From assembly GCA_011316305.1 (NCBI GenBank), contig SAUG01000090.1, forward strand, positions 1 to 64,000: a DNA stretch of 64,000 bases, given 5' to 3'. The position numbers were made by a program, and so were the translations under genes. The DNA is from Rusavskia elegans. Lineage: Eukaryota > Ascomycota > Lecanoromycetes > Teloschistales > Teloschistaceae. Positions 1 to 62,677 of the stretch are shown piece by piece; position 1 is the first letter of the stretch, and the number at the start of each line of letters is the position of its first letter. The notes under the pieces are model-generated. The model searched no databases. It saw only the letters and a program-made list of their open reading frames with translations, and was not told where the DNA came from.

Positions 1-35
<35 letters not shown>
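1..35. repeat. poly-G homopolymer at the window edge
   Basis: Thirty-five consecutive G residues open the window, followed by G/T-rich sequence up to about base 120. A run this long at an exact edge is more typical of a contig end or sequencing artefact than of biology. It is not a telomere repeat. The following 260 bases, up to the end of the tafazzin gene, hold no gene I can support. Confidence 0.8.
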
Positions 36-5953: not shown

Positions 5954-8050
5954 TCAAAAGCTGTACATTCGTACCTCGCAGTCTTCACTGCCCGTACAGA
6001 TCTTGTTGTCGCTGAGCCCAATGCAGGTGACTGGCCCTGCATGGCCAGTGAATGTCCTTTCGTATCCCTTCTTGGGATCCCACACCTTGACCATCCGGTC
6101 CTCGGCCCCGCTGACGATCCGGAGCGTGTCAGCCGCGAGCGCCCACACGCCTTCGAGGTGTCCAAAGTATGTGTGCAAGCACCTGCCGTTGGCCGTGTCC
6201 CACAACCGGATGGTCGAGTCCAGTGCGCTGCTGAGCATATATCGCGGCGGCAAGTGCCGCTCATTGCACGTGAATCCTGGTCCAAAGCTATCCGGAAGAG
6301 GTGGCTCCGCCATCGTCTGCCTTGGTGCCGGTTGCGATTGGAAGCTGGCCGTCGATGAAGAGCCATCTTCCTCATCCGTCTCAAAGTCGAATTCCGCCGG
6401 CATCAGGAGCACTTGCTGCACCTGGCCCACGTGGCCCTCGAACGTTCGAATGCACTGTTTCGTGTCAAGATCCCACATCTTGACCGTACAATCATCCGAG
6501 GCAGATACCACCGTGCGGGACGCCGAATCTAGTCTCACCGCGTTCACCCAGTCGCCATGCCCACGGAGGAGGAATGTCGACTTGTCCTCGAAATTCCAGA
6601 TCTTGACAGTATTGTCCATGGAACCCGACGCGAGCAACGCCGAGTCGAAATGCAGTCCGATGACACCACCGCTGTGACCGGTGTAGGTGGACAAACAGTC
6701 TCCGGTATGCCAGTTCCACACCTTGATGGTGCGGTCGATGCTGCCGCTGATAAGCTTGGTCTCATCGAATTGGAGGCAACGAATGCCGCACTCGTGGCCT
6801 TTCAGCGTGCGAATCTCTTCGCATGTCTCCAGATTCCATATCTTGATGGTAGCGTCGTAGGATCCGGTAGCCAACACGTGGTCATCGAATTGTAAACACA
6901 TTACACCATTGGAGTGCCCGCGGAATATCTTGGTTGAGTATCTCCCATGCTTCCAATTGATGCCGATCTTGAAGCGATCCTTGTAAACTTCCTTCCAAGG
7001 CCGGCATTTCGGTTGGAAGTATGAGTCTTCCTCCACCGACTTGTAGACGGTCAGATGGCGATTAGATCGTCGGCGGCCATCGTTGGCTGACAAAGGAGCT
7101 GCCTTCGCGACGGCAAGAATATCCTCGCCCGATTCGGCCAAAGCCTCTGGGCATGGCGTGATGTTGGGAGACCATTCATTGAGACCTCTGCCTGTTGCCC
7201 GTAGCTGTAGTTCTCTTTTCGAGGCTCTCAGCCTTTTCCTTTCGAGCAGCGGAAGCCCCCACCCGCACTTGGTGCACTTTCGATCGATGTGTTGTTCACA
7301 CATCTTATGCCAGACAAAGTCATCATCCGCCAATGTTCTCCATCTCTGACTGACCTGAGCCGCCTTGCAAAGTGACGTCGTGTCCAGATAACAAAGGACC
7401 TTCAACGAGAGCTCGGTAGGCAGAGCGGTAAGAAAGTCGATTCGAATGAGCTCTCTGATGTTGCATGCGAGGTAGGACAATTGCGGAAAGCAGCATTGGG
7501 TCAGGATGCCTTGCAGCATGAGGTTGCGATGTGCGGCAGGTGCGGCCGAGAACAAAGACCAGACGTGGGTTATGGCTTGCTGATCGGCTTGAGATAGATC
7601 TTCGAGCTCCTGTTTCTCGTCAGTCGATATACAGTCAATTGCAGTATCGACAAGACTAACATGCTGGAGTTGATCCATGGAAGGTTCGTCAGCCTGCCGT
7701 CGGCATTTCATGTCAGGCCGGTGCCTGTAGCAGTACTTGGTATTTGGATTCGTAGCAGCAGGGCTGCCTGCAGCTGGTGGTCTTCCTAGATGGGCATACT
7801 CATTGGGTATGTGCTTGGCGAGGAAGGGGGCAACTGTCTGGCCAGCTAATCTTGAGTTTGCTGAGGTGGAGAAGTTGGCGCCATCACCGAAGTTCATTTT
7901 CGCGGTAGCCGTTGAAGACATTCGCAGATGCTCGCCTCCATAGTGAGCGTGTTGATGAGGAAATGTGAAAGGAGGAGATCGCTCGTTCCGACCGAGGGAT
8001 AGTCGTCTCTTCTTAGCAGGACTCTCGGTGGGATCCATGCTGTGGTGCAT
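5954..8050 (-). CDS. sconB: F-box/WD40 sulfur controller, SCF ubiquitin-ligase subunit
   Basis: Orthologue of Aspergillus SconB, Neurospora SCON-2 and yeast Met30, the substrate adaptor of an SCF E3 ligase that represses sulfur-assimilation genes by acting on the MetR/Cys3 bZIP factor. Intronless frame of 698 residues, starting MHHSMDP. A second ATG four codons on is possible. Conserved N-terminal block [13 protein letters not shown] at about 104-116. F-box at about 205-252 ([16 protein letters not shown]). Seven WD40 repeats from about 373 to the end ([71 protein letters not shown]), with an acidic insert ([11 protein letters not shown]) inside the fifth. It ends in [12 protein letters not shown], the typical SconB tail. 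It is divergent from atg17. Confidence 0.96.
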
Positions 8051-8635
8051 ATCAAGATTGGAGACGTGTGTCTAGGAAGACATCAAGGTCCATCGGCGAT
8101 ATATGTGGCCAAAACGGAGCATTGAGAATTCTCCGACCGAAGTGGAAATGGGGGCACGGTATGCAAGGCGCAGATTCGCAATCGATGGCGTGCTGGTGTA
8201 TCAGATCCTGTGTCCAGTGCGGTGAGTCCTTTGAAGACGATGTAATGTACTATGACATATTATCATTCCTTTCCCAGTGAACAGAACAGAGATTATGAGA
8301 CGGTGGACTGCGATAAGCAGAGTCGTGTGCGTCCATGTTGGGATGAAGGAGTCCGATCTGGGAGTGAAGTACCGCTAGATTGCCAAGCTCGCCAAGCCGC
8401 TAAAGATAACTAGACCCGATCGCAGAAGCTCGGCAGCGGAATTTCTCCGATACGGATACACCGACAAGCCTCGACAGCGAAGACCGCTACGAAGTGCTGT
8501 CTCCAGTATGCGTGCAGAGGTGACAAGGCAGATTTCAACTGCCATGCGATACTTTTCCACTGGATAGTACGGACATATTCTACCACCATAGAGCCACAAC
8601 GAAGATCAATTTTGACAGGTACATTTCAGCTTCCC
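8051..8635. promoter_or_regulatory. shared divergent promoter region of sconB and atg17
   Basis: 585 bp separate the two start codons. No other coding frame is convincing here, so both promoters and 5' leaders must lie in this interval. I could not single out a specific factor-binding site with confidence. Confidence 0.55.
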
Positions 8636-10093
8636 ATGGTTTCCTCGAATTCTTCAGTATCCATCCGGGAAGCATCGCCTGCCCCGAGCTCTTTAGATAC
8701 ATTGGTGTCACATCTGGTAGCCTCCAAACGTTCTCTATCTTCCATAGAGCATGTATGGCGAGCCAACGAGATCGTCACCTCCACTCGGCTCCATCTCGAG
8801 ACCTCCGTCATCACCTCCGCTCGCACTTCCTTTCTTCGAGCCGGTATCACCACACAACTGCACACTCTACATGGCGTACATGCCCACAGCAAGGCCATAG
8901 AAGCAGAAGGTGCCGAGGAGTATGGAGAGGTCCTAAGAACCCTCGATGAAGCCGACAAGCGGCTGAGGCGCACATTGGAAAGCTTGAGGACTACAATAAT
9001 CGAGCATGCTCTGAGGCCAGAATCCGATCAAAGGAAGAATTTATTGGACTTTGTGGATGAAGGAGGGGTCGACAAGCTGCTGGCCGCTGTCGAACACTCG
9101 GCCAATGCAGCCAAAGAGGCACACTCGGAATTGGTCCAAACGAATCTTGGGTTCTACAGCGACTTGGCACAGATTCAGAACATCGTTGGTGGCCCAGGAG
9201 TATCTTTGAACCAACCAGCAAGTAAGCGGTCAGCTGGAAGCTTTCACTCCGACACAACGCCGGGATCGCCAATACCGGACATATTACAATCAATGGAGGA
9301 CCGCGCTAAAGACATGGCGGACAACTTGGAATCGCTCGTCAAGCACTTTGATCTCTGCGTGACGGCTATCAAGCATACCGAGGGCGGTGGAGATGCCGCG
9401 CAGCGACTCACGGATGATCTCCCAGAAGGCATGGCCGTGGGACAAGAGATCGCCAGCGCCCCACCCGAGCCGATCACCGACCTGGAACGGGAAGAGATGC
9501 TGGAAGTGCTAGCAAACGATGCTGATCAAGTTGAAGAGGTCCTGACGGAAATCCGTGATCACATCAGTGAGATGGAAGGCCTTCTTGAGAACACCACTGC
9601 CTATATCGCGCACCTCGACGAAGAACACTCCAGCGTCCTCCAAGCATTCCGACAGTTAGAATCCTTGGAGGCTCGATTGCATGCGTTTTTTGCTCAAAGT
9701 CAAGTGTTTGTCATGAGATGGGATGATGAAAAGGGCAAGATCAACGAGCGGATGAACGAGCTCGAAAGCCTCGGGGATTTCTACTCGGGCTATCTGAGCG
9801 CATACGACAATCTGCTGGTGGAAATTGGCCGGCGTCAATTCATGGAGCAACAGATGGAAAGGGTACTGCAGGATGCAATGCGGAAGCTCGATACCTTGCA
9901 TGAGGAGGATAGCATGAAGAGAGAGGCGTTCAAGACCGCCTACGGAGACTTCCTGCCCGTGGACATATGGCCTGGTCTCATCAACCCTCCTTTGCGTTTC
10001 GAGACAGCCCAAGTCAATGGTACGGAGAAGGTTCCTGATATCTCCAAGTCTGTCATACAGCGGGCAATCCACCGGGTGGAAGGCAAAACATGA
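8636..10093 (+). CDS. atg17: autophagy scaffold protein Atg17
   Basis: Scaffold of the Atg1 kinase complex that organises the pre-autophagosomal structure. Intronless, 485 residues from ATG 8636. The open frame extends eight codons further upstream only with a non-ATG start. Almost wholly helical. Recognisable Atg17 blocks are SLDTLVSHLVASKRSLSSI near the N-terminus, LLDFVDEGGVDKLL at about 140-155 and a Ser-rich loop around 200. Two long coiled-coil segments follow (DLEREEMLEVLANDADQVEEV, and the region with AFRQLESLEARLHAFF). The C-terminal LPVDIWPGLINPPLRFE motif matches the conserved Atg17 tail. Length fits fungal orthologues. It is the divergent neighbour of sconB. Confidence 0.9.
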   Translation: MVSSNSSVSIREASPAPSSLDTLVSHLVASKRSLSSIEHVWRANEIVTSTRLHLETSVITSARTSFLRAGITTQLHTLHGVHAHSKAIEAEGAEEYGEVLRTLDEADKRLRRTLESLRTTIIEHALRPESDQRKNLLDFVDEGGVDKLLAAVEHSANAAKEAHSELVQTNLGFYSDLAQIQNIVGGPGVSLNQPASKRSAGSFHSDTTPGSPIPDILQSMEDRAKDMADNLESLVKHFDLCVTAIKHTEGGGDAAQRLTDDLPEGMAVGQEIASAPPEPITDLEREEMLEVLANDADQVEEVLTEIRDHISEMEGLLENTTAYIAHLDEEHSSVLQAFRQLESLEARLHAFFAQSQVFVMRWDDEKGKINERMNELESLGDFYSGYLSAYDNLLVEIGRRQFMEQQMERVLQDAMRKLDTLHEEDSMKREAFKTAYGDFLPVDIWPGLINPPLRFETAQVNGTEKVPDISKSVIQRAIHRVEGKT

Positions 10094-10487
10094 TAGAAAT
10101 ACACAATTACAGCCCAGAGAAACATAGGAGTGGTAAGTTTGAATCACATCTCCTATCCCGTTGGATGTCTAAAATACCCTTACTACGTCATGGCCAATTG
10201 CAAAAATCTCGTGCATGAGACGGCGTGTCTGTCACCAGGAATCTTCTCCACTTTCCACGACGAATCAATGCTGCATCCCACGCAACAGTGGAAGCCAGTG
10301 CTAGCCTTATCTAGCGTCTGCAGCATGATGAAATTTCGTGAGGTCTTCCCTGCGCACCATCACATCTGTGAATATGTCAAGTGCAACAGTTCAACTCTCG
10401 CATCCCTCCTCCAGTTGCCCCTAAAGAAGTCTTGACGACAACAGCACAACAAACTTCAGGGACTTTACCTGCTTTGCAAAGAAGGAG
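10094..10487. other. intergenic region, atg17 to MFS gene
   Basis: 394 bp between two same-strand genes. It holds the 3' flank of atg17 and the promoter of the permease. I see no further gene. Confidence 0.6.
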
Positions 10488-12395
10488 ATGGATAGCGAAG
10501 TGAAAGACAAGACAGGACCATCCGTCGCCCCTACAAACCACACATCAAATGGGCATCTACAATCGGACCACCAAGATCAATTGGCCACCCCATCATTCGA
10601 GAAAGATGCAGCTGCCGCCATTGTCTCAGATCATGCCATCGTCCTCGACAAGGCCGCGGCACGCCGAGTCCAACGCAAGATCGATTGGTTCCTTATCCCA
10701 ATCATGTGGTTTGGTTACGGCCTGGTCTACTACGACAAAGTACCTCTTACTTCCCAACACCACGTCAGATCCCGCTGACATGTTGAAAAGGCCATCTTAG
10801 GCAGTGCGGTCCTCTTCGGCATGACCGGAGACCTCCAGTTGAGAGTCGTTGTCGACCCCTCCACAACACCTCCAAAGACATCAACCCAGCGCCTGAGTTG
10901 GGCAACTTCCATGTTCTATTTCGGCATGCTGGCCGGCTTATACCCACTCACCTTCCTCCTTCAGCGCTTTAATATGGGTCGAGTGCTTTGTGGGGTTGTC
11001 ATCATCTGGGGTCTAATATGTATGCTCACGGCAACCGTCAATTCGTGGCAAGGGCTCTTCGCCCAGCGCTTCTTCCTGGGCTTCGTGGAGAGCATCATAC
11101 CAACCGGATTCATGTGTATCGTCAGTGGGTACTACACGCAAGAGGAGCAGGCATTGAGACAGAGTTGGTGGTTCTCCTCCACCGGCGCTTGGACTATCAT
11201 CGGTGGAGCATTGAACTACGGATTTGCCCAGATCACGGGAGGGAGCTTGAAGAGGTGGCAGTATATCTACCTGTTGGCTGGGGCTCTGACGATCGGATTT
11301 GGATGCATCTGTTTCTGGATACCGAATTCCGCGGTTGATGCTTGGTTCTTGACAGAAGAGGAGAGGGTCGTTGCCGTCGAACGTTTGAGAAAGGGCCAGA
11401 CGGGGGTGAGGTGCCAGATGGTGAAAAAGGAGCAATTGAGGGAGGCGATACTGGATGTCAAGATCTGGCTCGTTTTCTTCATGATGGCAGCGGCGTATGT
11501 CCGCCAAACTTTCCCGCAGCCTGATCCGTCACTGATATGAAGTCAAGCTACACCGTCAACGGCGCGGTCAGCGGATTTGGTCCCCTCATCGTCTCCAACT
11601 TTGGGTAAGCTCGTCCTCTGCATCTACTCCACTGCCTCGCCGCCAGCATACTGACTACCCAGTCCAGTTATACAACCCTCGAGTCAATCCTTCTACAATT
11701 CCCTCTCGGCGCCATCGTCTTCATCTTCGTCCTCCTCACCGGCTACATCTCCTCTCGCATCCGCAACATCTGCCTCATCCTGCTCATCCTATGCTGCCTC
11801 CCGGTCATCGCCGGCTGCATAATGATCTGGAAAAGTGACTGGTATCCTCGCGCCCCGACGCCGGTGGCGGGATACACGATAATCGGATTTTTCGGCCCTG
11901 TGGTGTTTTTGATCATCAACATCGGTATGGCGAATGTGGCCGGCGCGACGAAGAAGAGTTTCACTGCCGCGGCAATTTTCGTGGCTTATTGTGTGGGGAA
12001 TGTAAGTTTTTACCCTTCATGATGGAGAGGAGGGGTATGAGATGCTGATAGTGGGTGTCACGGATAGATCGTGGGACCGCAGCTGATCAAGACACAAACG
12101 CTCGACCGGCATTATCCGGAACTTTGGCTGGGGCTGATTATCTGGTATGCATCTCCAATCCACCTCTAAACCCTCTGTCCTATACCATACCTGGGACTTC
12201 CGCGCGTGAGAATCTATACTTACATGCCCCAACAGCTACTGTATCGTCATCGTTTTGGCGGTCATCCTCTATCTCCACCTGAAAAGTGAGAATCAGCGAA
12301 GAGATCGGATGCCAGGGGACGATGCCGAAAGAGATAAAATGGCGTTTCGGGACCTGACGGATAAAGCAAATCCGTACTTTAAATATATCCTCTGA
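10488..12395 (+). CDS. MFS permease, Dal5-like anion:cation symporter family
   Basis: Plasma-membrane transporter of the fungal allantoate/Dal5-type family, which moves organic anions such as ureidosuccinate, nicotinate or related acids. Six exons: 10488-10739, 10791-11498, 11543-11604, 11668-12001, 12068-12144 and 12236-12395. The total is 530 residues, and each junction keeps frame. The cytosolic N-terminus leads to RRVQRKIDWFLIPIMW, the typical entry to TM1. Then come LSWATSMFYFGMLAG (TM2 region), QRFFLGFVESIIPTGF (TM4) and QSWWFSSTGAWTIIGG, followed by the usual loop with LTEEERVVAVERLR. The second half has GPLIVSNFGY, GFFGPVVFLIINIGMANVAG and SFTAAAIFVAYCVGN. The C-terminus ends ANPYFKYIL, also typical. 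Substrate cannot be told from sequence. It is near the NRPS-like gene and could export or import a related acid, which is speculative. Confidence 0.88.
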
Positions 12396-13039: not shown

Positions 13040-16000
13040 CTACACGTTTTTCTGATAGCCCCATCCCTTCATCCACTTCCCCATTGCATCCCCATCTATC
13101 GCCTTCAACGCTGCCATAGTCGGACTGTCCCTTACGGCGTTAGCGGTATTGTAAACAGTTGTCCTGGTAGAATAGCTTCCCTCCGCAAGGGCAGCGAAAA
13201 AGGGGAGAATTTTGGTGGCGGGATATTTCTCCATGGTGGACGAATCGTCGGAATCAAAAGATGAGAGACGAGTTACCCAATCCTCCAAGGGAATAACGTT
13301 GATAGGAGAAGAGGGAGCGCTGATGTACTCTTTGATGGTGTCAATGAGGGTGGACCAGGACGAATGATATGGGTTGACGAGATTGTAGATTGATGGTTCG
13401 GTCACTGACTTTGGTATGGTGGTGGAAGGTATATTGATGGCCAAGGCGAGCTCAACGATAATCCGTGAAAGACTATCTACAGGTATCCAATCAACAAACG
13501 GCACCCCGTTGGGCACACATCCCATATTTTGCGAAGATCGGATAAGAGCCGGGACCCATTCATCTGGATTCCATACCCCTGGAGAAGCGATCGGTCCAGC
13601 GATTTGCCCGATGCGGAGGATGGTGCTGGAAACGCCTGCCTGTTGCGCGGCGTGATGTAAAATATGTTCGGCGACATTTTTGGATTCGGCGTACCCCATA
13701 TGTTGGGCCGCGGCGTGGGAGGAGATGTGATGTTGGGGTACCATGGCGCGTTCGGGGGAGATTTTTGGGTAGCGAGAGACGGAGGATGTGGAGGATATGA
13801 AAATGACGTGTGCCCGGTGGGTGCTGAGGAGGGAAAGATTGATGAGATTGCGGAGACCGCGAAGGTGGATGGGTGAGTAGGAGGCGAGAGAGTGGTTGAA
13901 GTCAACTTTCCAGGCGGCGTGGATGATCGTAGTTACCGAGTCGGCGATTTCTGCGTATTTGGCCGCGGTGAGGCCTAGGTCTGAGCGGCTGTAGTCTACT
14001 TGAAGGAATTCGACCGGAGCTGTCTGCGTCTGCTGTTCGAGTTCCGTATGTTGACTTTTGGCGTTTGCGCGGCGACCAAGGCAGTAGACTTTGCTGACTT
14101 GAGGAGATTTGACCAAGTCTAGTAAGAGTCGCCTTCCAAGAGACCCAGTAGAACCAGTCAAGACGAAACACTTCGACGACGCGGCTGGTGGATGTTCTGA
14201 TATTGTTGACTCCTTGAGGTCATATGTATACTTCTCAACAAGGTTCCTCATTGCTTCAATGCGTCCATTCTCCGATCCATTGATTTGCTTGCCCTTGAGA
14301 AGATCGAAGTCATCCGACCTGCCTGAGTCAACATTGGATGCTGGGTTGAGATGTACATAGATTTGTTCCGCAAGTTGATCGATTGTGGGATTGGTGTAAA
14401 GCGTTTGGCTTGTGAGCCAGGGTAAGTGGTGGTTACGAAGCCCTGCCTTTACCAGAGAGATTATCTCGATCGTCTTAAGAGAGTCCAGGCCAAGGACATA
14501 CAAGTCCTCGGTTCCTTCAATTCCTCGGACTGGAAATGACCTGTCAATAGTCTGGCGGAGAAACTCTCTCAGTGCGTTGATATCGCTTGCGTTGCTTCGT
14601 GCAGGCCCACCCTGATGTTCAAGAAGAACATCATCAGAGTACAAAGCCTCAATTTCGGCTGCATACTTCTCTGCGGTCATCTTGCGGACCACAGTACCCT
14701 TGCCCGCCCGCTCAAATGGCTTCGCTAGGTCCGCCACGACGATCATTGTCCGTATGATCCTGCCATGGGCTTGAGCTTGGGCATTCGCCTTCTCGATGGT
14801 GGGCCAAAGCTCGTCAATCAAGGAAATTTTCGACTTATCTGTCTTGAGAGGTTCGATGAGCAGAGCTGCCTGGAACCTCCCCTGGCCAACGATCAGGGCG
14901 GCGGAAACCAATGGATGACTGTTGATGATGGCTTCACTGGGGACTGGGTTGAACTTCTCGCCGTTGGAGAGAACAATGATCTCGTCGGTGCGAGCATGGA
15001 ATCTCCAGAGGTTAGGCTTGCTGGCATGTGGTCTGAATAGGTCTTTAGTCCGCCAGGTGTCGATGTTGGGGAAATTGTTGTCAAGACCTCGAATGCCCTC
15101 AAGCTTGGAATCGCGGTGGAGGACTAATTCGTACGCTTCGTCAACTGACGGCTGCAGATCAGCGCCATACAGCGGATGGAACTCCAAGGTGTCCCAGTCT
15201 TCGCGCGTAGGAACCAGAGTCTGGGCTGGACCGGCTTCTGTCGAGCCGTAAAAGCCACATACGTCGGTGACCTTACTCAAAGCTGTTCCTGTGGCGGTAG
15301 TCAGGGGCCCACCAGCGTACATCACGAATTCAAGGTTCTTGGCGAGCTCAAGGCCATCTGGTTCCTGTAGTAGTTGTTCATAAATATTGGGTGGACAGAA
15401 CAAAGCCTTGAGTTTCAACTGCCGCATGACTTCTGCAGCAGTCTGACCCGTTGATGGTTTATTGGATGGGCCGAGTACGACGCTTGAATGTGTGGAATAG
15501 ATGGGTAGTACGATGTAGGCCACGAAGCCGCCAAGCTAAACAACGATCAGTACGGCAACAGCACGATTGAATAACCCTCGGCTGTGTTGGAATTAATGTT
15601 GATCATATGGTCCTGACGCTGGGCTACTGCTTAGAGAGGAAGAACATACATGGAAAGGTGGGAATGAAGAAAAAGAGAAGCCTCCCTCGTCGCCAAAGTT
15701 CCAAAGTGAGAAGTTTTGGTTGCGTCGCCCGGGAACCTTGTCAAGATTCCGATCGTTGTCAATGACGGCGTAGGTGGCGTGGTTCATGACAATGGGCTTC
15801 GGTATACCTAGAACGTACGAGTCAGCCTTGTATTGCTTGGTCTGGCCAAACATCCATTCGAGATGTCAACGGATGCACTGGATCCCGTGCTTGCCAATGA
15901 AAGAGGACGGCCCACCAGTCGAACCGGAAGAATGCAGTACGACCATCGGTTCCCATCTTGCCGTCGCATAGTCTTTGTCATACGGGTAATGCTCGCTGGC

Positions 16001-16541
16001 GTCAACGAGCATGTCGTCCAAGGTCGGTACTGCCAAGACGCGAAGCTGTTTCCTTTCCTTCTTCAGCGACTCGGCAATTGGAAGCACTTCGGGTGAAGCA
16101 AAGAACTCGCAGCACTGGGTTTGATCCAGAAGGGACATGTTGATCTGAATAGTGTTACGTGGTGAAGGGAAGAGCACCTGCAATCACTGGATGTGAGGAC
16201 TTTCAGATAGCTCAGGTGGAGGCAGAAGGCCGACTCACTTTGTACCCACACTTGACGGCTGCGAGGAAGAAGATAGCATAGCGAATATCTGGAACACCGA
16301 GATAAGAGACCGTTTCGAATGAGGGGCTTGTGCCGATCTGATTCTCGAGCCACCAAGCCATGTGGTTGACTGCTCGAGCCATTTGTGCCATGGTGACACT
16401 CCGGAAGCCATCATCGAGGTTTGTTGTCTTGGGGAAGGCAGCGTATATTCTTTCGGGGTCGGTGATGGCGAGGTCGTCGAGGACTTGAGGTAGCAGCCGG
16501 GATCCATATGCTGGCTTGCTGGGACCTGGAAGAGATGTCAT
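13040..16541 (-). CDS. NRPS-like carboxylate reductase (adenylation-thiolation-thioester reductase)
   Basis: Predicted to activate a carboxylic acid as AMP ester, load it on a phosphopantetheine arm and release it by NAD(P)H reduction as aldehyde or alcohol. Four exons: 16541-16239, 16177-15916, 15807-15650 and 15535-13040, giving 1072 residues, all in frame. The adenylation core HSSGSTGIPKP (about 184-194) is completed across the second intron. Then FYGSTEAGP (about 336-344), TKDLF, and RTDEIIVLSNGEKFNP. The carrier domain has LGLDSLK (about 589-595), with Ser as attachment site. The reductase has the nucleotide-binding TGSTGSLGRR (about 701-710), an SSTSS strand and the catalytic YAESK (about 856-860). 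There is no condensation domain, so it does not make peptides. Such enzymes are usually specialised-metabolism genes. The GPCR-like and UbiA-like genes lie to the right. Substrate is unknown. Confidence 0.9.
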
Positions 16542-17099
16542 GCTGCAATGTGAGGCTTTGGGATGTTATCAGTGTTGGCGACCTGCGTCTATGTTACAAG
16601 AGAATACAGACAAGGCTGACCAGAAGGGCGTTGATGTTATAAAGGTTGGCTAGAGGGACCTGGATGTGGTTGCTACTTCATGGTTGGTTGACTGACTAAG
16701 CAAGTGTAACAGCCAATGTCGTGGTACCGACATGCTTGATTCGACACTTCGATAGCTGTTTTGACGATGGACATTGGCTCAAGCTACGTTATGCGGCTTG
16801 CCGTTTGGACATGGAGGGTTAGGAAGTGAACCACGGAAGGATCACCTTGCCGCTTCGTGGGCAACATCCAACACTATTGCGGGGCTAAAGCAACAGTATG
16901 TGTGACAAGCAGCATTGCATATGCAGCAGCGTGGCATGGGTGAAATCCCCCAGCAAAGATGGATTAGGTATGCACATGGATCGACTCAAACGCTGGCCCC
17001 ATGGATCCAACAGATCCGGCTGAGTAAGTAGTTCTGGGATGCTATCTCTGGAGCCACCGCACGACAGCTTGGCCTGCATTCGAACAATGCCTTTCTAAG
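16542..17099. other. upstream region of the NRPS-like gene
   Basis: About 560 bp with no coding frame I trust. It should contain the NRPS-like promoter. A short frame at 16885-17079 (minus) has no motif and was left out. Confidence 0.5.
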
Positions 17100-17109
17100 C
17101 CTGACCGGT

Positions 17110-18075
17110 TCAAGCTGCCATGTTCCGTTCTGACGGCCAGCTATGCGACGATAAGAAGCTCTTCAATTCCGTCGGCAGCAGCCATTGCCGGTCTGGTCGA
17201 TGGCTGGCTCGTCTCGGGAAGCAGGATATCCTGTGCATACAACAGGGTGACGGTATGCGCGAAGTACCCTCCGCTGTATCTCGACGACCTTCGGATCGCC
17301 CATTACCATGTCCTTCAGAATTTCCAATTCCACGTTCACTCTTCCAATTAATTTGCCTGATTTCGCCTTGATGGCGTATGTCGGTAGGTTTGCAAACGCA
17401 TGTGCTCAATCAGGAACTCCGTACCTTCAGAAGAATCGATGAGAACGGTCTAGTGCCATGTTAGGAAATAGAATATCGCAGTTGTCCCAAAGCAACCCCG
17501 GAATCTCGTCCGAGTCAAAGCCTTAGAAACATCCCTAGCGGACCAGGTGAGTGTCCACATATCCGGTGGATGTCAAAGCCCCAGCACCGCTGGAAGAGAG
17601 ATGGGCCAGCCCCCATAATCTCGAGGTTCCATCGCTCCTCGTTCAATTCATGGTCGACTCGATCGTAGTTAACAATGCTCCTCTCGTCCTCATCGCCATC
17701 GTCGAAACCCGCGAGCTTTGTGCCGGTGAAGGGGTTCTGTAGCATTATGTCATCGATGGCGTGCGCGTACATGGATCCACACAACTCCGATGGGGCATCC
17801 TGGAAGAAGACATCTGAGCTAGTCAGTGGCAAAGACGTGACGGCCGGACATGACGTGAGCCAAGATTTGGAGGACGTTGGGTGACGCACAAGCCTGGATT
17901 TCCTTATGAATTGAGTACTTAGCAGCTTATCATAATGCCCGGAGAAGTTCCCATCAATCTCTTCACTTCCGGCAAATAGAGGGAATGGCAAATGGTAGTG
18001 GAATAAGCAGAGATGGGGTTGTTTGATGTTGCTGTAATGGATTTTTCGACCGAGCTTGCGGAAGCATATATTCAT
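17110..18075 (-). CDS. unresolved conserved-looking coding region, possibly multi-exon or decayed
   Basis: I do not recognise the family. On the minus strand a frame from ATG 18075 runs to about 17540. It contains SELCGSMYAHAIDDIMLQNP and ERWNLEIMGAGPSLFQRCWG, which read like a folded domain. An intron (about 17890-17800, ending CTTCCAG) may remove the poor stretch before DAPSELCG. After RICG the frame is lost. In the next frame, DEIPGLLWDNCDILFPNMA continues sensibly. After further breaks AIKAKSGKLIGRVNVELEI and KDMVMGDPKVVEIQRRVLR appear around 17360-17270. The joints need either very short introns or frameshifts, so this may be a pseudogene. It lies between the NRPS-like and receptor genes. 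Confidence 0.35.
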
Positions 18076-18148
18076 TGCGGTCCAGGGTGCAAGGTACTGC
18101 TCGCTATGCCACTCTCAAGAGATTGTTTTCACATGTGCATGCCGCCGC

Positions 18149-19558
18149 TCAAACTGCGTTCCACCCAGCGTGTTGCGTCTCGGTAGTCTTCCCGGCCGTT
18201 GTTGCTTTCTTGAAAGAGATCTCGATATCTTGCGTCTTCAGAATCCGATTCTCTTCCTCAGGTGGAACAATGCGCTCTTCAGACACTGAAGGCAAAAGAG
18301 AAGGTTTGCTCTTAACTATGGAGAACTGGGAGCTAGGACCCTGGTTCACTTTGTGTGGTCGATGCTTGTATGAATCTAGCTTCATGGGGGCTCCAGAGGG
18401 GATGTAGGAATTTTTGGACGTCGGTTTTCGCCAATGCAAGAACAGAGGCCGTAAAGTAGGGATGCTCCCGCAGATCATACCAACACACAATTCGAGTCTA
18501 CGTATTATGTTAGATGTCCGATCGCCTTAGAGGGATGGGAATACTGACGGAGCCCAAAGGCATAGATCAGCAACGATCCCTAAGATGACGATTTTGTCAG
18601 CAGAGAGGCAGAAAACAGCCAGTACAGCTGGGAAGGATCTCCATACAGGTCTTATCGGGGTCAGTCCTTGTCAGATTCGGTAACAAAATTGATTTGACGA
18701 CGGCGCAAGCGCACGTACTGGGCCAGCTTTGTGAGCGCGCGGTTATTCAACGCTATGCAGTGGATGGCTCACAAGATTCCAAGGCAGCAAAGGAAGATCA
18801 GGACCAATTTTGTACGAAGATCGACCTGTAGCCGCCAGAACATACACACGGGTATGCAGAGCAAGACGACATCTGACAAGATCGAAGCCGCTGGACGAAA
18901 AGCGTAAGCTATGGCTTAAATCAAATCGCAAACCCACGAACCTTGGTACAACCATAATGCGGATTCGTTGATGGCATCTCTGACGGCGCATGAACCCGAT
19001 GCGTGAGGCAGCCAGACTTTGTGAATGGGTACGCATTCGAAAAAGAAGTTAATGGACACATAGATATCTGATATTGCAAGAATGCCAATGATGCCCCAAA
19101 TGGTCCGAATGTAGCGCTTCTTGGGTGGAACAAGGCGAAGGAAGAAAAGAGCAATGGACAGTCGAACAAGGAACACAGCAAACAGGTTTGTTGGTTCGGC
19201 AGCCCAGAGCCACTTGAAGGTCTCGGGCACGTTAGGTTGCGGGACATAGAACAAATGCCTGCCCAAGCCTAAGCGGTAGGCGTTGATTAGGAAGGCGTCG
19301 GTCACGATGGTAATAAACTGGTCTGACTTCAGTATCTGTCGTGCACTTCGGGCTGCCCATACAAGGCTGAGATCATACCGACGCAACGAACATGGTCCAG
19401 TCATCCCACCACAGGTTGCGACTCACAAAGGCGCGGGTATACATTCGGATCCAAGCGATAGCGACCGCAATGACAGTCATGATGATGATGCCGGCCATGA
19501 ATCGTCCTCGCAGATCCACGTCGCCTTCTGGCGGTGCTTGGAGAAGAGGAGCGCTCAT
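18149..19558 (-). CDS. fungal rhodopsin-domain (PTH11-like) membrane receptor
   Basis: Seven-transmembrane protein of the fungal rhodopsin-domain family, often proposed as G-protein-coupled sensors of surface or chemical cues. Six exons: 19558-19379, 19317-18942, 18890-18773, 18717-18647, 18579-18549 (31 nt) and 18497-18149, giving 374 residues with consistent phases. Family blocks in order: WWDDWTMFVAS after TM1-2; GLGRHLFYVP; LWAAEPTNLFAVFLVRLSIALFFLR; then a loop with conserved Cys. Next come ALWLYQAASILSDVVLLCIP, WRLQVDLRTKLVLIFLCCLG and finally LELCVGMICGSIPTLRPLF, the signature that ends the TM7 helix. The cytosolic tail (about 80 residues) is Ser/Lys-rich. It has no CFEM domain. It lies beside NRPS-like and UbiA-like genes, so a sensing role for that locus is possible but unproven. 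Confidence 0.82.
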
Positions 19559-21040
19559 AATTGGCGTGATGGAACACTTCAGGAGCAGAGAAGAGCTTGA
19601 GCGCCTAATTTTGATGGAGTGCTGCCCAGAGCTTTGTTACAGTCCAAGTGGGGAAGTTCAATGTCTCCAAAGGTGCCTTGAGATGACGAGACTCCCGAGT
19701 GGCCCAAGAGCAACGAACGTGGAGGTTTCGGACTGGAGTCGGGCTTCATCAAATGTCTATTGTTCACAGCGGCTGGCTTGTGAAAGGAGATATCTGCAGG
19801 ACCCCAAATGTACAACCGGACATCGGGTGCAGGGGTCGGATTGGAGACGCTGTCATGAGACGCTGCAAGAGCTGCCGAGCAGGTGGGAAGACTGCATGGG
19901 CTGTGCCCTCCACCACACTCGTTGCCATTGTAGTGGAACATTCGGACCAGGCACCGCTATGGTTTCAGGAAGGACGACAGCAGCCACAGCAGCCGAAAGT
20001 GGATCGATGCAACTTGATGAATGATGAGTGCAGCAATGAGCAGGAATGGAAAGATGGGGGCCAGATAATGGATGGCACCCCATAGTCGCAATCGTATGGG
20101 CGCCACGACACCAAATCTCCTAGGACATGCACCATCGATGAAGCAGAAAGGGGGTGCAGGGGACAGGGCATGCTGCATGGTGCAGTGGCGGACCGTGCAA
20201 CACGTTCAGCTTCGTGGCGGGCCGAGAGCTGGCTTATGTCTTGTCAGCATGGGTGCCATTCGCCGATGCTGAAATCAAGGTGCCTCCGATGGATCAAGAT
20301 CAAATAGCTTTCGGGGTTGAACAGAAGCGGTCAAGGGCCTTTCGTAGGAAGTCGAGTGTTTGTGGTCTGCAGTCACCGGTGGTGTATGCCCTCCGGACCG
20401 AATATATGGCTCCTCGACAGAAGCAGTCTTGCCAAAGAGGGGGGATACTCCGTGGAACATGGCTACTTCACCGATTCGATCGCTTAGATGTGATACCTCC
20501 ATGTTTGTTTCAAAAAGATGCACAAGTAAGAGCTCAGCTGAGAGCTGAGACAAGGAAGAGCAGTGCCAGGAGACACAGAAGATTTGACACATGACGTCAC
20601 CAGCTCCGGCATTTCCCGCGCTGACGTGCAGGCACTAAAACCCTAGGTCCTTCCGGTATCCTCCGAGCCTCCAAGGTACTCTACTGCACACTACTACTGT
20701 TTGACCCGAGATCGATGATATCCCTCGGCTGGCTTATTATGGCGATCATCGTTACTTTACTAGTTCTTCGATTGATTCGTCCCGCATCGATCGAATCCTG
20801 CATCTGACGTGCTCCGCATGGTAGGCTACCTTACGGGGCCGGTCAGAATGAAGTCGCATCTTCTGCACAGCCAAGGAACTCCCCGAGACCCATCAACTCC
20901 CATCCTTAGACATCGTCGAGCAGTATCATGGGGCTGCAGCGCTGGCCTGGCGGTGACCTCCTTCATCGTCAAGCTGGAGCAGTAGGATCCAAATTCCTGA
21001 CGTTTCCTGTCAGACATCCGACGCTGGAATATGTCAGCTA
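19559..21040. other. 1.5-kb region without a supported gene
   Basis: Overlapping frames exist on both strands, the longest about 210 codons at 19392-20024 plus, partly antisense to the receptor. They have odd composition (many Cys, His, Arg) and no motif. A short hydrophobic minus frame at 19957-20178 could be a membrane segment but has no supported partners. Confidence 0.45.
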
Positions 21041-21089
21041 ATGACTGAAGCTCCTACTTTGTCCGAACTACTTGTCCAGATTATCATGA

Positions 21090-22157
21090 TTGCAGTTGCC
21101 TTACGGCGGCATCCATTCACTGACACCTGCTGAAGAGATTCCACAAGCTGTGCGACAGCCCCAGCACATTCGATCCTGCAATCGACCAAAATGGCAAGCC
21201 CACCCCTTTGAACACTCGAGCTCACACACCACTTCTTGTTCCCCGGCTAACCAGCCTGGCCAGTTCTCCAAGCTTTTCTATCACGCATACACCATCTGGC
21301 TCTTCACCGTCAGCGATATCAAGAGTGTCATCGTGCCTGAAACAATCCTGGGAGTCACCACTGCTCTTTCTGGGAGTCTGCTCACCGACAATGACACGCC
21401 GGACCCGTGGCAGATCTTCCACCGGATCCCAAACACCGTCGCATGGAACTGGTTGAGCCTGTTCCTCTTCGATCTCTGCAACCAGTCCCAGACGGACTCC
21501 GTTCTCGAGGATTCGCTCAACAAACCATGGCGTGCCATACCCTCGAAGCGTATCACCCCCAACCAGACCCGAACCCTGCTCCTACTAGTCATCCCATCCG
21601 TGTACCTGGCGACCTTGAGCCTGGGCGGCACCTGGGAGGCAGTCACTCTGATGCTAGGAACGTGGATGTACAATGATCTTGGCGGAGCAGACAACGGCCC
21701 CTTCGTTCGGAATCTTCTCAACGGATTCGGCTACATCTGTTACAGTTCCGGCTCAATGAAGGTTGCCGCAGGATACGGCCAGCATGAGCTGAATGAGACT
21801 TCGAACTGGTGGCTGGCAATGATCGGCGGCATCATCTTCACGACTCTGCAGATGCAGGATATGCCTGACATCCATGGAGATGCAAAGCGTGGGAGGCTGA
21901 CGATACCTTTGATCTATGGTGATCGGGCCGCGCGTTGGAGCATTGCTATCCCCGTGGTCGCTTGGTCAATCATATGCCCAATATTCTGGAGCGTCGGTTT
22001 AGCTGGGTTCATGCTGCCACTCGTCGCTGCTACCATTTTCTTGACTCGGCTCTTTCTCTTCAGAAGCGTCGCAGATGACTCTTTGACCTGGTGGTTCTGG
22101 TGTTCATGGCTGTCGTCGGTGTACATACTTCCCCTCGCCAAACGCTGTGGCTTTTGA
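21090..22157 (+). CDS. UbiA-type prenyltransferase or terpene-cyclase-like membrane protein
   Basis: Polytopic membrane enzyme of the UbiA superfamily, which includes polyprenyltransferases and fungal membrane-bound sesquiterpene cyclases. The coding signal is unambiguous from about 21264 (FSKLFYHAYTIWLFTVSDIKS) to the stop. The first diphosphate-binding region is divergent: FDLCNQSQ then EDSLNKPWRAIPSKRI. The second is QMQDMPDIHGDAKRGR, a DxxxD plus GR motif typical of the family. Eight or nine hydrophobic segments follow the usual UbiA spacing, and it ends WSSVYILPLAKRC-like. The start is unresolved: the open frame back to 21090 has no ATG. A leader exon from ATG 21041 spliced at 21094/21264 is possible but has a weak donor. 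Cyclase versus transferase cannot be decided from sequence. Confidence 0.8.
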   Translation: MQLPYGGIHSLTPAEEIPQAVRQPQHIRSCNRPKWQAHPFEHSSSHTTSCSPANQPGQFSKLFYHAYTIWLFTVSDIKSVIVPETILGVTTALSGSLLTDNDTPDPWQIFHRIPNTVAWNWLSLFLFDLCNQSQTDSVLEDSLNKPWRAIPSKRITPNQTRTLLLLVIPSVYLATLSLGGTWEAVTLMLGTWMYNDLGGADNGPFVRNLLNGFGYICYSSGSMKVAAGYGQHELNETSNWWLAMIGGIIFTTLQMQDMPDIHGDAKRGRLTIPLIYGDRAARWSIAIPVVAWSIICPIFWSVGLAGFMLPLVAATIFLTRLFLFRSVADDSLTWWFWCSWLSSVYILPLAKRCGF

Positions 22158-22505
22158 TGACACTCGGAGCACGGTACGAAGCATGCGCGGAGCATAGATG
22201 ACCGAGAAGCCTTTTAGCAAGTAAGAGCTATAGGGCTGTAAGTCGGATATCTCGGGTGTCTCGATGGAGAGACTGTTTCTTCAGTAATCAAACCAGTTTA
22301 AATTCCTGGAGCTCTACGTTCATTGCACGCAAAGCAGGTAGTATCATCCTCGGATCATATCCAATTGCATGATCTCCTTCATGTCACGATAGTAGGTATA
22401 GATATGCTGTATTGGATAGTTTTCTTCAACCTATCCCTCTGGCAAGGGCCCTAGTCTTGGATCTTCGACTTGCCAGATACTGCTACCGTGGTCAGCGAAA
22501 GCGTC
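22158..22505. other. intergenic region, UbiA gene to HET relic
   Basis: About 350 bp. Composition shifts here from balanced to strongly AT-rich, marking the left border of the decayed HET sequence. No gene is seen. Confidence 0.5.
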
Positions 22506-24259
22506 CTAACCAGCCTCTGTAGTCACGTTATAGCGAATAACGTGTTGGCAGTTATCTGGCAGTGGACCCAGGGAGGCCTCAGCTGTTATTAGACTATCTA
22601 TATAGACTTCGCCAACAACGAGATAATCTTCGTTACCCTTCGGCCGTAGAATAATGGGTGATTGGTACCCTAGAAATACCACGATACAGTCGGCTTGGTG
22701 AGCGATCTTGGGAGCCAGGCCGATATAGCCTCCTTGTGTTATGATGATCGAACGGTTCAGCCTATTATAATAGAATGCGTTAAGAAACGTATAACAAGAC
22801 TCCAGGAAAATATCAGTGGGCTCCGCCATTGATTTCGCTAATATACGATAGTGTTCCAGAGTTGCTTGGTATTTTATACGGTTCCTGTCGACCGGCTTAA
22901 TATAATTAGAAAAGTCGTTGCAGTATAATATTCGATATATTATTTCCAGCTGCCGATTAAAATTATCAATCCCCAGTTATTTTCGAAGCCACGATATAGA
23001 TCTTTCCAGAGCCTTATAGGTCTCTCGAAGCTGCGGTGCTTTGCCGCTCTTAGCTAATAACGACGGATTATATACCAGGATTCGCTGGACTTTATAATCT
23101 TTCCTATATATCGTCCCGTCGTAATCAGGTACCTGTCCCCACTATTGTACCTAGTATAAGGCAGGGTGTTCCCGTATGCTCTTGCGCCGAGGATCTCTTT
23201 ATATTTCCTCGGAACGGACCGATTCGGAACCCAGGACGGTATCTTGTCTCTGTTATTCTGTAGTTCACAGCAGGTAAGGAGTGCCAGGTCTCTATAGTCG
23301 AACATGCTTGTCACCATCATGTCCCGGAAAAAAAACTTCAACGGTGGTCTTGGTATAGTCTGACTGGATCCCAAGCCTTTCGTATTCTGAAACGAGGTTC
23401 GGAACCGCGTAAATCCTGTTACGTGGATCGGAACACTAGGCACCCTTGGTTCGTCGTAGGACGGTTATCAGTAATAGCTGAGTACCGATATAAATGATCT
23501 TCCGAGCCTACCGTATAGTCCTGCTAAGAAGTGGTATTCTACCCGGTTTAGGCCGCCTATAAAGATATCGGATTACTTTACGAAAATCTTCCTATACTAT
23601 GGTATTATCGCTACAGATAATTACTATACTTCTTTAAGCGAGGGCTACTTCTTGCCAAATCTATAATCGGCTAAACCAAGAGCGGTCCAGAAGCTATCTA
23701 ATCGAGACCTATATTTCTTCGTCGAACGGAGCGTATCTAGTTAAGTTAAGCTAGTTAGATTTCGCATCTTCTTCGCTAGCAGCGCTGATCGTATAAAAGT
23801 TCTAGTTAACGTGGATCTTCGAAGCGAGCGTTTTTAAGCTTCGATAGCCGCTATACCTTTATCCGCCTCCGGACCAAGCTATATAACTACCTTCGCAGCC
23901 GAGCTTTAGATATCTGCTATCCTCACAACCTGCTGGTTTCGCTCCTTATCGTTATATTGATTGATGCAGACAGTATCAACCTATAATATCCTGGGTGAAG
24001 AACTGTCTCAGAGATGCTGCAGGGCAGTATACAGGTTTTCGGTGACCGGAAGACTTTGGTTTCCGTCTTCGGTGTCCTCGTATATAATATGTAAGAGATT
24101 ATTACTGCCCCAGGTATAGGATAATGCCTTATAGCGTGGAAGGCAATCGGTTTTAAGTTTGGCATGGCTTAAGCTGGTGTGTATGTCGGATTCGAAAGGA
24201 CCGGCAGAGAGGGTCAAGACCCTTATACATCCTTTGTCCAATGGATGGTAAATGTACAT
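22506..24259 (-). pseudogene. HET-domain (heterokaryon incompatibility) gene relic, probably RIP-mutated
   Basis: HET-domain proteins trigger self/non-self cell death in filamentous fungi. The minus strand starts well at ATG 24259: the family opening with SLSHAKLKTD, then YKALSYTWGS and LPVTENLYTALQHL, the classic HET N-terminus. After this, frame is lost. Remnants reappear at 23443-23054 (DYRDLALLTC and SWVPNRSVP, echoing the conserved RDK and SWVPDW regions). A further remnant at 22829-22506 has ITQGGYIGLAP, then VVFLGYQSPIILR and YLVVGEVYIDSL, matching the usual HET C-terminal block. The stretch between is full of stops and TA/TATA dinucleotides, as expected after C-to-T repeat-induced point mutation. 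It is most likely inactive. Confidence 0.8.
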
Positions 24260-25625: not shown

Positions 25626-26018
25626 ATGGCCACCCCACCACCCACACCCCCACCCCCCGCCGCAACCGCCTCACTCCTCAAAAGCGCAATCCTCACAGTC
25701 TTCAACCAACGCGACCCCGCCCTCCGCCTCTCCTACATCAACCAACTCTTTGTCGCCTACCCCATCAGCTACTCCCACTCCTCAACTTTCCACGGCCGTG
25801 AAGCTCTCAACGCACATATCTCCGACCTGCAATCCCGCTTCCCTCCGCACTGGACCTTCACCACGGACGGCGTCGTCAAAACTTCGCTCGATCGCGGCAT
25901 GATGCGGTGGCGCTTTGGGCCTCGGACCAATGGTGAGAGGGGGATTGTTTTTGGGACGCATGTTGTTACTGTGCAGGAGGGGAGGATAGCGCAATTTTGG
26001 ATTATTGTTGAGAAGTGA
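25626..26018 (+). CDS. NTF2/SnoaL-like small protein
   Basis: Intronless, 130 residues, from ATG 25626 after an AC-rich leader. A Pro/Ala-rich start (about 15 residues) is followed by a fold pattern of the NTF2/SnoaL type: helix with LKSAILTVFNQRDPALRLSY, then FHGREALNAHISDLQSRFP, then strands FTTDGVVKTS, MMRWRFGP, GIVFGTHVVTV and GRIAQFWIIVEK. These small alpha/beta cone proteins bind or turn over small hydrophobic compounds, or act only as ligand carriers. No catalytic set can be assigned here. It stands isolated between the decayed HET region and a secreted-protein gene. Confidence 0.7.
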   Translation: MATPPPTPPPPAATASLLKSAILTVFNQRDPALRLSYINQLFVAYPISYSHSSTFHGREALNAHISDLQSRFPPHWTFTTDGVVKTSLDRGMMRWRFGPRTNGERGIVFGTHVVTVQEGRIAQFWIIVEK

Positions 26019-60955: not shown

Positions 60956-62677
60956 TTATCGCCAGCAAAGCCCTTCTCGGTGCTTCACAGTAACCCGTAC
61001 GTTGTTAGGGCTCTTGGTCTGCGCAACGTATGCGTCGCTGCCGAACTGCACATCCTCAATCGTTGTCTCATACAGCTCGAAGTCGAAGCTGGAGAACAAT
61101 ATCGACACCGTCAAATACAACTCCGCCCAGGAAAGGCTATGAATGCGTCCCCACATGTCAGCGCAGCTTCACTATCGCCCTCAAGTACAAGTACAACAGT
61201 CCGAGAAGGAAGAAAAGAAGGAAGACTCACTGAACACCCAAGCACATCCTCGGTCCTCTCCCAAAAGGTGCAAAAACATCATCCATTCTTTGTCTTTCTG
61301 GGGGAGAGAGGTTGAGCCAGCGGTCCGGCACAAAGGAATGCGAGTCGGGGAACAGAGTCTCGTCGTGGAAGAGCAGACCGTTGGACATGCCGACGGGCGT
61401 ACCGGGTGGGATGAGCCAGTTGGCATAGCGGATCGCACGGTCCGGTGCGATCCTTTGCAGGCGGGTCACGGCGCCGTAGGAGAGACGAATGCCCTCTGTC
61501 AGGACGGCGGTTAAGAAGTCAAGTTTTTCTAGCTCTTGAAGCGATTTTGGAGTGGTCTTGTCGAGCTCTTCTCGAAGCCGTGTGAGGATCGCGGGGTTGG
61601 CGCAGAGATGGTAGGTGAGGACCCGCAGCACGCGTGCCACCTCGGTGCCCCCAGCGATGACGCCGTCGCCTTGTTCGACGAGGTCCTGTTCCCCGTCCGG
61701 TGTGGGGGAGCGGTCGCCTGCCGCCTGCAGCAGCTCGTGGAAGATGGTGCTGTGTTCTTTTCTACTCGGGTCGTTTGTGGCAGCCCCATCCTCGCTTCTT
61801 CCGGCCATGACGCGCCGCAGGATGGTGAGGTTCCGCTCGGAGAGATTCTTGTAAGCGGTCAACCTGGCACCTAGGTATGGTAGCACCCAGGTTGGCACTC
61901 TGCGGAATAGCCATGGCAGCAAAGGGATATGTTTCCCAATAATCCATAGAGGACCGAAGTCGGTAAAGAACTTAAATAACTCCTTGTTATAGTCAATCAG
62001 GTCGAGATTCCCCATGCTCTTTCCTAAAGCGTAGCCGCTGGCTATATCTAACCCCATAGCGGCGTAGGCGATGCCGATTTCGAGTACGTTTCCAGAGGCA
62101 GAGGCAATCTTTCGCTCAATACGGCTGACGAGAAGTCCAACTTGCTCGCGCAGGAAGGGCTCTCGCTCGGCAACTCTCTGCTTTGAGAAAAGGGGCTCGA
62201 GCGGAGCACGCCGCCTCTTATGGTCGTAGTGGTCGATAGAGCCGAAACCCGAGCGCGATAGTTGGAACGCTCTATAGGAAAAGTCATACTTGTTCCAGCG
62301 GCCGGTATGGCTGTATAACGTTGTATGAAAGCTTGGGTCGTTGATATGGAGCTCATGAGGACTGATACGCACGATTGGCCCTGGAGCAGGAATTATTTTT
62401 TAGCCGCAAATGTCAGGTTGACTTACAACAAATGGAGTGTTGCGCCAGATGGACCAGCGAAGTGCCTACCGTAGGTTTTGTGGAGTTCGTTGATCTTGAA
62501 TATGTATTTACCACCCTTGAGCACATCGTAGTACGCTTCGTACAATTTGGTGGCTGCAGCCAACTTTGGACCCGGAAAACCGGAAAGAGGATGGAAAGCC
62601 AGACGGTACACTATCAGAATTATTCGATAGAGAATCAAGTAAGATCCCAGCAGTCCTAAGATCATGAAAGATTGCAT
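60956..62677 (-). CDS. cytochrome P450 monooxygenase
   Basis: ER-bound heme monooxygenase. Three exons: 62677-62470, 62380-61231 and 61136-60956, giving 512 residues (introns 89 and 94 bp). N-terminal membrane anchor: [19 protein letters not shown], then [13 protein letters not shown]. Next [19 protein letters not shown], typical of fungal specialised-metabolism P450s related to trichothecene-type oxygenases. I-helix: [13 protein letters not shown], where the usual acid-Thr pair is altered. ExxR is EGIRL. PDRWL lies in the PERF region. The heme loop [10 protein letters not shown] has Cys at about 449, and the last exon has [24 protein letters not shown]. No biosynthetic partners are adjacent. 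Substrate is unknown. Confidence 0.92.

Follow-up and report, generated by a model that had tools for sequence, protein, structure and literature searches.

Three neighbouring genes of a fungal genome, encoding (i) a stand-alone carboxylate reductase (CAR) resembling nonribosomal peptide synthetases (NRPS-like), (ii) a seven-transmembrane (7TM) receptor and (iii) a UbiA-type terpene cyclase-like protein, were found to recur as neighbours in related lichens, and a real, undescribed metabolite locus is therefore probable. They were located in the window, which was the first 64 kb of the 96.5-kb contig C211 (SAUG01000090.1) within the 44.2-Mb genome of Rusavskia elegans; judged by sequence matches, the nearest relatives of the window proteins were those of Xanthoria. 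Our reading, to which we give a probability of about 0.65, is that of a small specialised-metabolite cluster without a polyketide synthase (PKS), having these three core genes and inherited together in Teloschistales. A first-pass annotation had proposed a possible undescribed metabolite locus here, and intact genes, motifs and a kept neighbourhood now present it as real, conserved, apparently undescribed and built from known enzyme families. The core genes were as follows.

13040..16541, minus strand: CAR, NRPS-like with adenylation-thiolation-reduction (A-T-R) domains, 1072 aa; four exons 16541-16239, 16177-15916, 15807-15650 and 15535-13040
18149..19558, minus strand: 7TM Fung_rhodopsin protein (PF20684, Pth11-like), 374 aa; six-exon spliced model, exons 19558-19379, 19317-18942, 18890-18773, 18717-18647, 18579-18549 and 18497-18149
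21191..22157, plus strand: UbiA-type terpene cyclase-like protein, 298 aa; ATG exon 21191-21193 (inferred from a homologue and splice signals), GC-AG intron 21194-21263, exon 2 21264-22157

The three core genes

The reductase, the UbiA-type gene and the rhodopsin-domain receptor between them, all named in the first-pass annotation, were borne out by gene models and Pfam matches (Pfam was applied to 26 of the 54 window open reading frames [ORFs] of at least 150 aa); five proteins compared with NCBIfam gave no match above cut-offs.

The spliced CAR model contained no internal stops, by which a pseudogene was ruled out. Its pieces matched AMP-binding, AMP-binding_C_3 (3.1e-40) and NAD_binding_4 (1.4e-34), while the PP-binding match (0.0027; 18.4 bits versus 20.8 required) lay under the Pfam cut-off; despite that score, the T domain displayed GLDSL with S593, and the A-T-R domain order was present. 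The R domain matched 8aep at 5.6e-59, this structure (8AEP) being the R domain of NcCAR (PMC10168641) and the best solved relative. Alanine replacement of any of five NcCAR residues abolished activity (PMC5826065), and their counterparts in the window CAR, assigned by motif and without an NcCAR alignment, were H241, E434, S593, Y856 and K860; the A-T-R order and, by motif, these five residues were thus shared with NcCAR and related A-T-R enzymes. The window CAR was 96% identical over 82% of its length to that of 'Xanthoria sp. 1' and 84% identical to that of X. aureola. Seven CAR clades (I-VII) have been published (PMC9605436), and of the best 120 of 584 matches none could be recognised as a full-length CAR that has been characterised. 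Before the A5 motif, the window CAR had VCGF versus VCQF in 20 of the 28 aligned CARs shown, a possible substrate-pocket change.

The longest exon ORF of the receptor (18916-19422) matched PF20684 at 9.5e-19, and its intact spliced model ruled out a pseudogene. The receptor was 90% identical to X. calcicola XANCAGTX0491_006818. P0242, an orthologue 82% identical to the window receptor, had seven helices in an AlphaFold2 model with a mean predicted local distance difference test score (pLDDT) of 77 and a low-confidence tail, and the orthologues P0241 and P0242 carried PF20684 alone in Pfam, CFEM being absent. Seven modelled transmembrane helices together with PF20684 would make the protein a Pth11-like receptor.

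A one-codon exon followed by a GC-AG intron was proposed for the UbiA gene because it fits the 298-aa X. calcicola homologue, which begins MFSKLFYHAY; a start inside the ORF from 21090 was rejected, there being no ATG near the ORF start. The protein matched PF01040 (1.5e-15; 57.6 bits, cut-off 34.2), was 94% identical to X. calcicola XANCAGTX0491_006817, and its exon 2 was modelled by AlphaFold2 as all-helical with a pLDDT of 96.5. In exon-2 numbering, it displayed motif I N73-Q-S-Q-T-D-S-V-L-E-D83 (N-x9-D) and motif II QD199MPD202IHGD206 (QDxxDxxxD), and N73, D83, D199, D202 and D206 were invariant across a 61-sequence alignment including the window. The spacing matched those given in the cited passages for Pb_BisA (N95..D105 and D219/D222/D226; PMC11745945) and Tps1A, in which changing D100, D215, D218 or D222 led to loss of activity (PMC9835599). 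By these motifs and by its place in the tree (see below), the window UbiA is of terpene-cyclase type, apart from the genome's other prenyltransferases.

Conserved neighbourhood

Homologues of the three proteins were collected by a word-based search (UbiA, best 120 of 123 matches; receptor, 43 of 43; CAR, best 120 of 584, out of 7991 candidates scored), and co-location was judged from the locus tags and longest-contig sizes of these database matches alone; the counts below hold among the matches listed. UbiA and CAR lay close together in 8 of 9 same-genome combinations, namely in Squamulea squamosa, Blastenia, cf. Caloplaca, Teloschistes exilis, Wetmoreana, Xylographa opegraphella and two further contigs; the exception was X. 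bjoerkii, where they were 7530 tags apart and both genes fell outside the paired sets of the trees (see below). UbiA and receptor were close in all seven combinations (7/7), and 16 of the 18 CAR-receptor combinations were likewise close, at eight lichen-type loci and eight non-lichen ones (two each in Gnomoniopsis and Periconia, and one each in Cytospora, Lophiotrema, Byssothecium and Lophiostoma); both CAR-receptor exceptions involved P0271, a 31%-identical paralogue. Equal contig sizes across the match lists were seen 7, 7 and 16 times for UbiA-CAR, UbiA-receptor and CAR-receptor, versus 0.10, 0.03 and 0.04 expected by jitter.

The full trio was present in four match genomes (S. squamosa, Blastenia, cf. 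Caloplaca and one further contig), and two of the three genes in 11 further lichen-type loci (X. calcicola, Letrouitia, T. exilis, Wetmoreana, Squamulea sp. 1, Ikaeria, Polycauliona, Loekoesia, X. opegraphella and two further contigs), where the third may sit beyond the matches listed. The CAR model P0130 of Gyalolechia sp. 2 contained a PF20684 domain and probably represents two merged neighbour genes. Letrouitia and Squamulea belong to Teloschistales, Xylographa to Baeomycetales, Gnomoniopsis to Sordariomycetes, and Periconia and Lophiotrema to Dothideomycetes.

Phylogeny of UbiA and CAR

The UbiA tree was a quick one of 99 rows with SH-aLRT support only, in which no enzyme of proven activity was included by name; it omitted matches outside 250-380 aa (P0010 was kept, cut) as well as the four fragments P0029, P0088, P0096 and P0108 and, in addition, HK_L017. 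The window UbiA fell within an 11-row Teloschistales set (100*), which also took in P0001 and P0005; this was nested in a 23-row clade (99*), itself part of a 96-row terpene-cyclase-type set. A branch of 3.86 (100*) divided the 96-row set from the genome's COQ2-like UbiA (a label of our own reading) and its two NDxxDxxxD UbiAs, with the program's long-branch warning for the outgroup and for a UbiA from contig C33. A housekeeping prenyltransferase was ruled out by this placement. All close-paired UbiA rows (the window plus 10 database rows) lay in the 23-row clade, while none of the other 72 terpene-cyclase-type database rows had a close pair, the CAR side being the best 120 of 584 matches. Loss of synteny in relatives, or grouping with housekeeping prenyltransferases, had been named as outcomes that would speak against the proposed locus; what was found instead was that reductase, receptor and UbiA remained neighbours and that UbiA stood apart from both the COQ2-like and the NDxxDxxxD UbiAs.

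The CAR tree comprised 81 rows with a midpoint root, matches shorter than 930 aa being omitted save six added by hand. All close-paired CARs present in it lay in one 59-row set (98*), which split into 20 rows of lichen type (92, not starred) and a 39-row set (100*) with all eight non-lichen loci, by which the CAR-receptor bond appeared wider in range than the bond to UbiA. Across nine paired genomes including the window, UbiA and CAR distances were correlated (r 0.86, p 0.002).

Comparison with described clusters

The stb/asc pathways consist of a PKS, a CAR and a farnesyltransferase (PMC9605436; PMC11643632), of which AscA has been named a UbiA prenyltransferase (PMC9835599). They resembled the window locus in combining a stand-alone CAR with a UbiA-family gene in one pathway, but had an aromatic farnesyltransferase and an orsellinic-acid PKS, whereas here the UbiA was of terpene-cyclase type and no PKS was found on the contig: the window UbiA had NQSQTDSVLED instead of NDxxDxxxD, and none of the genome's 79 ketoacyl synthase matches was on C211, the contig start being 13 kb left of CAR; PKS genes were present elsewhere in the genome. 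The tps1 cluster of A. cinnamomea likewise has a UbiA-type terpene synthase as its first enzyme, yet it is described with a P450 and a methyltransferase, in contrast to a CAR and no nearby P450 here.

The window UbiA shared the UbiA family and the QDxxDxxxD motif II with the cyclases Fma-TC, Tps1A/Tps2A, BibS (by mention only) and Pb_BisA, and with Pb_BisA also the N-x9-D motif I; it differed from the known UbiA-type cyclases in belonging to a separate lichen clade and in having CAR and 7TM neighbours. An A. fumigatus cyclase-type protein (P0111), whose identity as Fma-TC was not confirmed, was 38% identical to it. For Pth11-like G protein-coupled receptors located in clusters, PKS and NRPS-like genes are the commonest neighbours, as a reported trend (PMC12842992). 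The window receptor was like other cluster-borne Pth11-like/Fung_rhodopsin proteins in PF20684, seven helices and an adjoining NRPS-like gene, and unlike them in that its orthologue tracks one CAR group across three fungal classes.

The first-pass annotation could not match the combination of a UbiA-type gene, a stand-alone CAR and a sensor-type receptor to a described pathway, and this stood in part. UbiA with a stand-alone CAR is known from stb/asc, and receptors of this type near such genes are a reported trend; a cyclase-type UbiA with CAR and without PKS was not found in the source portions available, and no description of the CAR, 7TM and cyclase-type UbiA trio was found among the listed titles and abstract openings of open-licence papers. 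The main texts of two lichen surveys (PMC9907504; PMC11457338) did not contain the word 'UbiA'; the former, covering 45 Lecanoromycetes genomes, reported that most families of biosynthetic clusters occurred in one or two genomes.

Proposed pathway and alternative readings

We infer a link between terpene and carboxylate-reduction chemistries. Through its Mg-binding Asp motifs, the UbiA protein would ionise farnesyl diphosphate, which it would then cyclise to a sesquiterpene, e.g., of bisabolene or bergamotene type; the CAR would adenylate a carboxylic acid, load it onto its own carrier domain and reduce it with NADPH to an aldehyde; and the 7TM protein may act as a sensor of the product or of a cue, tuning the pathway. 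The order that we prefer, tentatively and with more doubt than confidence, is that a P450 encoded elsewhere oxidises the terpene hydrocarbon to an acid, from which the CAR then makes a terpene aldehyde.

Several observations weigh against a three-gene cluster. The UbiA-CAR distance correlation inside Teloschistaceae alone was 0.37; no receptor from X. opegraphella was among 43 of 43 matches; no P450 match other than that of a gene piece 39 kb from UbiA (61227-62396, match 61236-61841) was found on C211 among 92 of 192 candidates scored, and no oxidase adjoined the trio; and the species of the eight non-lichen CAR-receptor loci were absent from the best 120 of 123 UbiA matches, so UbiA is not obligatory. 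The functional unit might accordingly be CAR plus 7TM, an old Pezizomycotina pair, with UbiA a separate terpene gene of another pathway that in lichen fungi came to lie next to this pair. The adjacency at those eight loci and the strands (CAR and receptor on one, UbiA on the opposite) speak for this reading, but UbiA and CAR adjoined in X. opegraphella without a listed receptor match, the close-paired UbiAs all fell in one clade, and the UbiA absence at non-lichen loci depends on a word-based search; we regard it as rather unlikely. An ordinary conserved gene order with no functional link is highly improbable: most lichen pairs did come from Teloschistales, where order may be broadly kept, but inertia hardly explains the adjacency in Xylographa, the non-lichen loci in two other classes, or UbiA-CAR pairs without a listed receptor.

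The specialised-metabolite cluster of three core genes is thus the reading that we retain. The trio spanned several genera of one order and part of the adjacency reached other orders and classes, which suggests long-term selection on its product; the absence of a PKS makes a few-gene rebuild in yeast or Aspergillus oryzae feasible, and the trio lends itself to a direct test of whether 7TM proteins encoded in clusters sense what their own cluster makes. More speculatively, and with long odds, CAR and 7TM may be an ancient make-and-sense unit of Pezizomycotina, in which a volatile aldehyde made by the CAR is read by the receptor, and to which lichen fungi added UbiA, giving a terpenoid signal made and sensed in Teloschistales, possibly for thallus development or symbiosis.

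Flanks of the trio

The following further features were recognised in the window.

5954-8071, minus strand: F-box/WD40 gene, left boundary (Pfam)
8414-10093, plus strand: ATG17-like gene, left boundary (Pfam)
10425..12022, plus strand: MFS_1 permease exons (MFS_1 1.6e-20 for 10779-11540)
17515..18114, minus strand: possible small gene (weak), ORF of 199 aa between CAR and receptor
22450..24200, no strand: relic mutated by repeat-induced point mutation, directly right of UbiA (dinucleotide ratios)

A second MFS_1 match (0.00043 for 11609-12019) lay under the cut-off; this permease, which the first-pass annotation had called Dal5-type and placed beside the locus, is at most a candidate member of the cluster. 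The 199-aa ORF (17515-18114) had no Pfam match; its mean codon score of 0.067 was the sole positive of six frames and was carried by two of four segments. Loekoesia and Polycauliona had one extra locus tag separating CAR and receptor. The relic (22450-24200) displayed TA/AT of 1.17 (six stretches taken for comparison gave 0.42-0.57) and (CA+TG)/(AC+GT) of 0.80 (1.26-1.51 in those six), and is likely the right edge of the conserved unit. The contig started with a G run (window 1-35), and no telomere repeat was found in its first 120 bases. Neither tRNAs (ARAGORN) nor Rfam families at gathering scores were detected, a repeat search of 16500-21300 gave short pairs only, and a 23-base window pattern matched only itself. 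A SnoaL-like protein of ~129 aa (25629-26018; PF12680, 2.8e-06) was encoded 3.5 kb right of UbiA.

Other UbiA, CAR and PF20684 neighbourhoods in the genome

The genome contained seven UbiA loci, four of which had PF20684 within 6 kb, a threshold picked after data inspection; the binomial tail was 5e-5 with the window and 8e-4 for three of six without it, the PF20684 counts being minimum values (of 158 matches, 150 were listed, and these were merged to 133). The region C33:80001-110000 (L025-L027) carried, within ~17.5 kb, a terpene-cyclase-type UbiA ORF, a broken CAR, PKS pieces KR and PS-DH and two PF20684 matches, with no ketoacyl synthase closer than 142.8 kb; P450-like and MFS-like ORFs picked there by eye had no Pfam confirmation. 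Its CAR was broken and 31-44% identical in pieces to the window CAR, and its UbiA grouped with Aspergillus rows (96*, long branches), so C33 was rejected as a copy of the window UbiA-CAR pair and regarded as a separate neighbourhood. As another case of UbiA beside CAR, from different clades, it counts in favour of the three-gene cluster. Two NDxxDxxxD UbiA genes, on C139 (L034) and C21 (L035), each had a PF20684 match within 2.5 kb, that on C139 spanning part of the profile only. A further CAR-7TM neighbourhood was seen at C205:340001-350000 (L033), where P450, PF20684 and CAR lay in a row.

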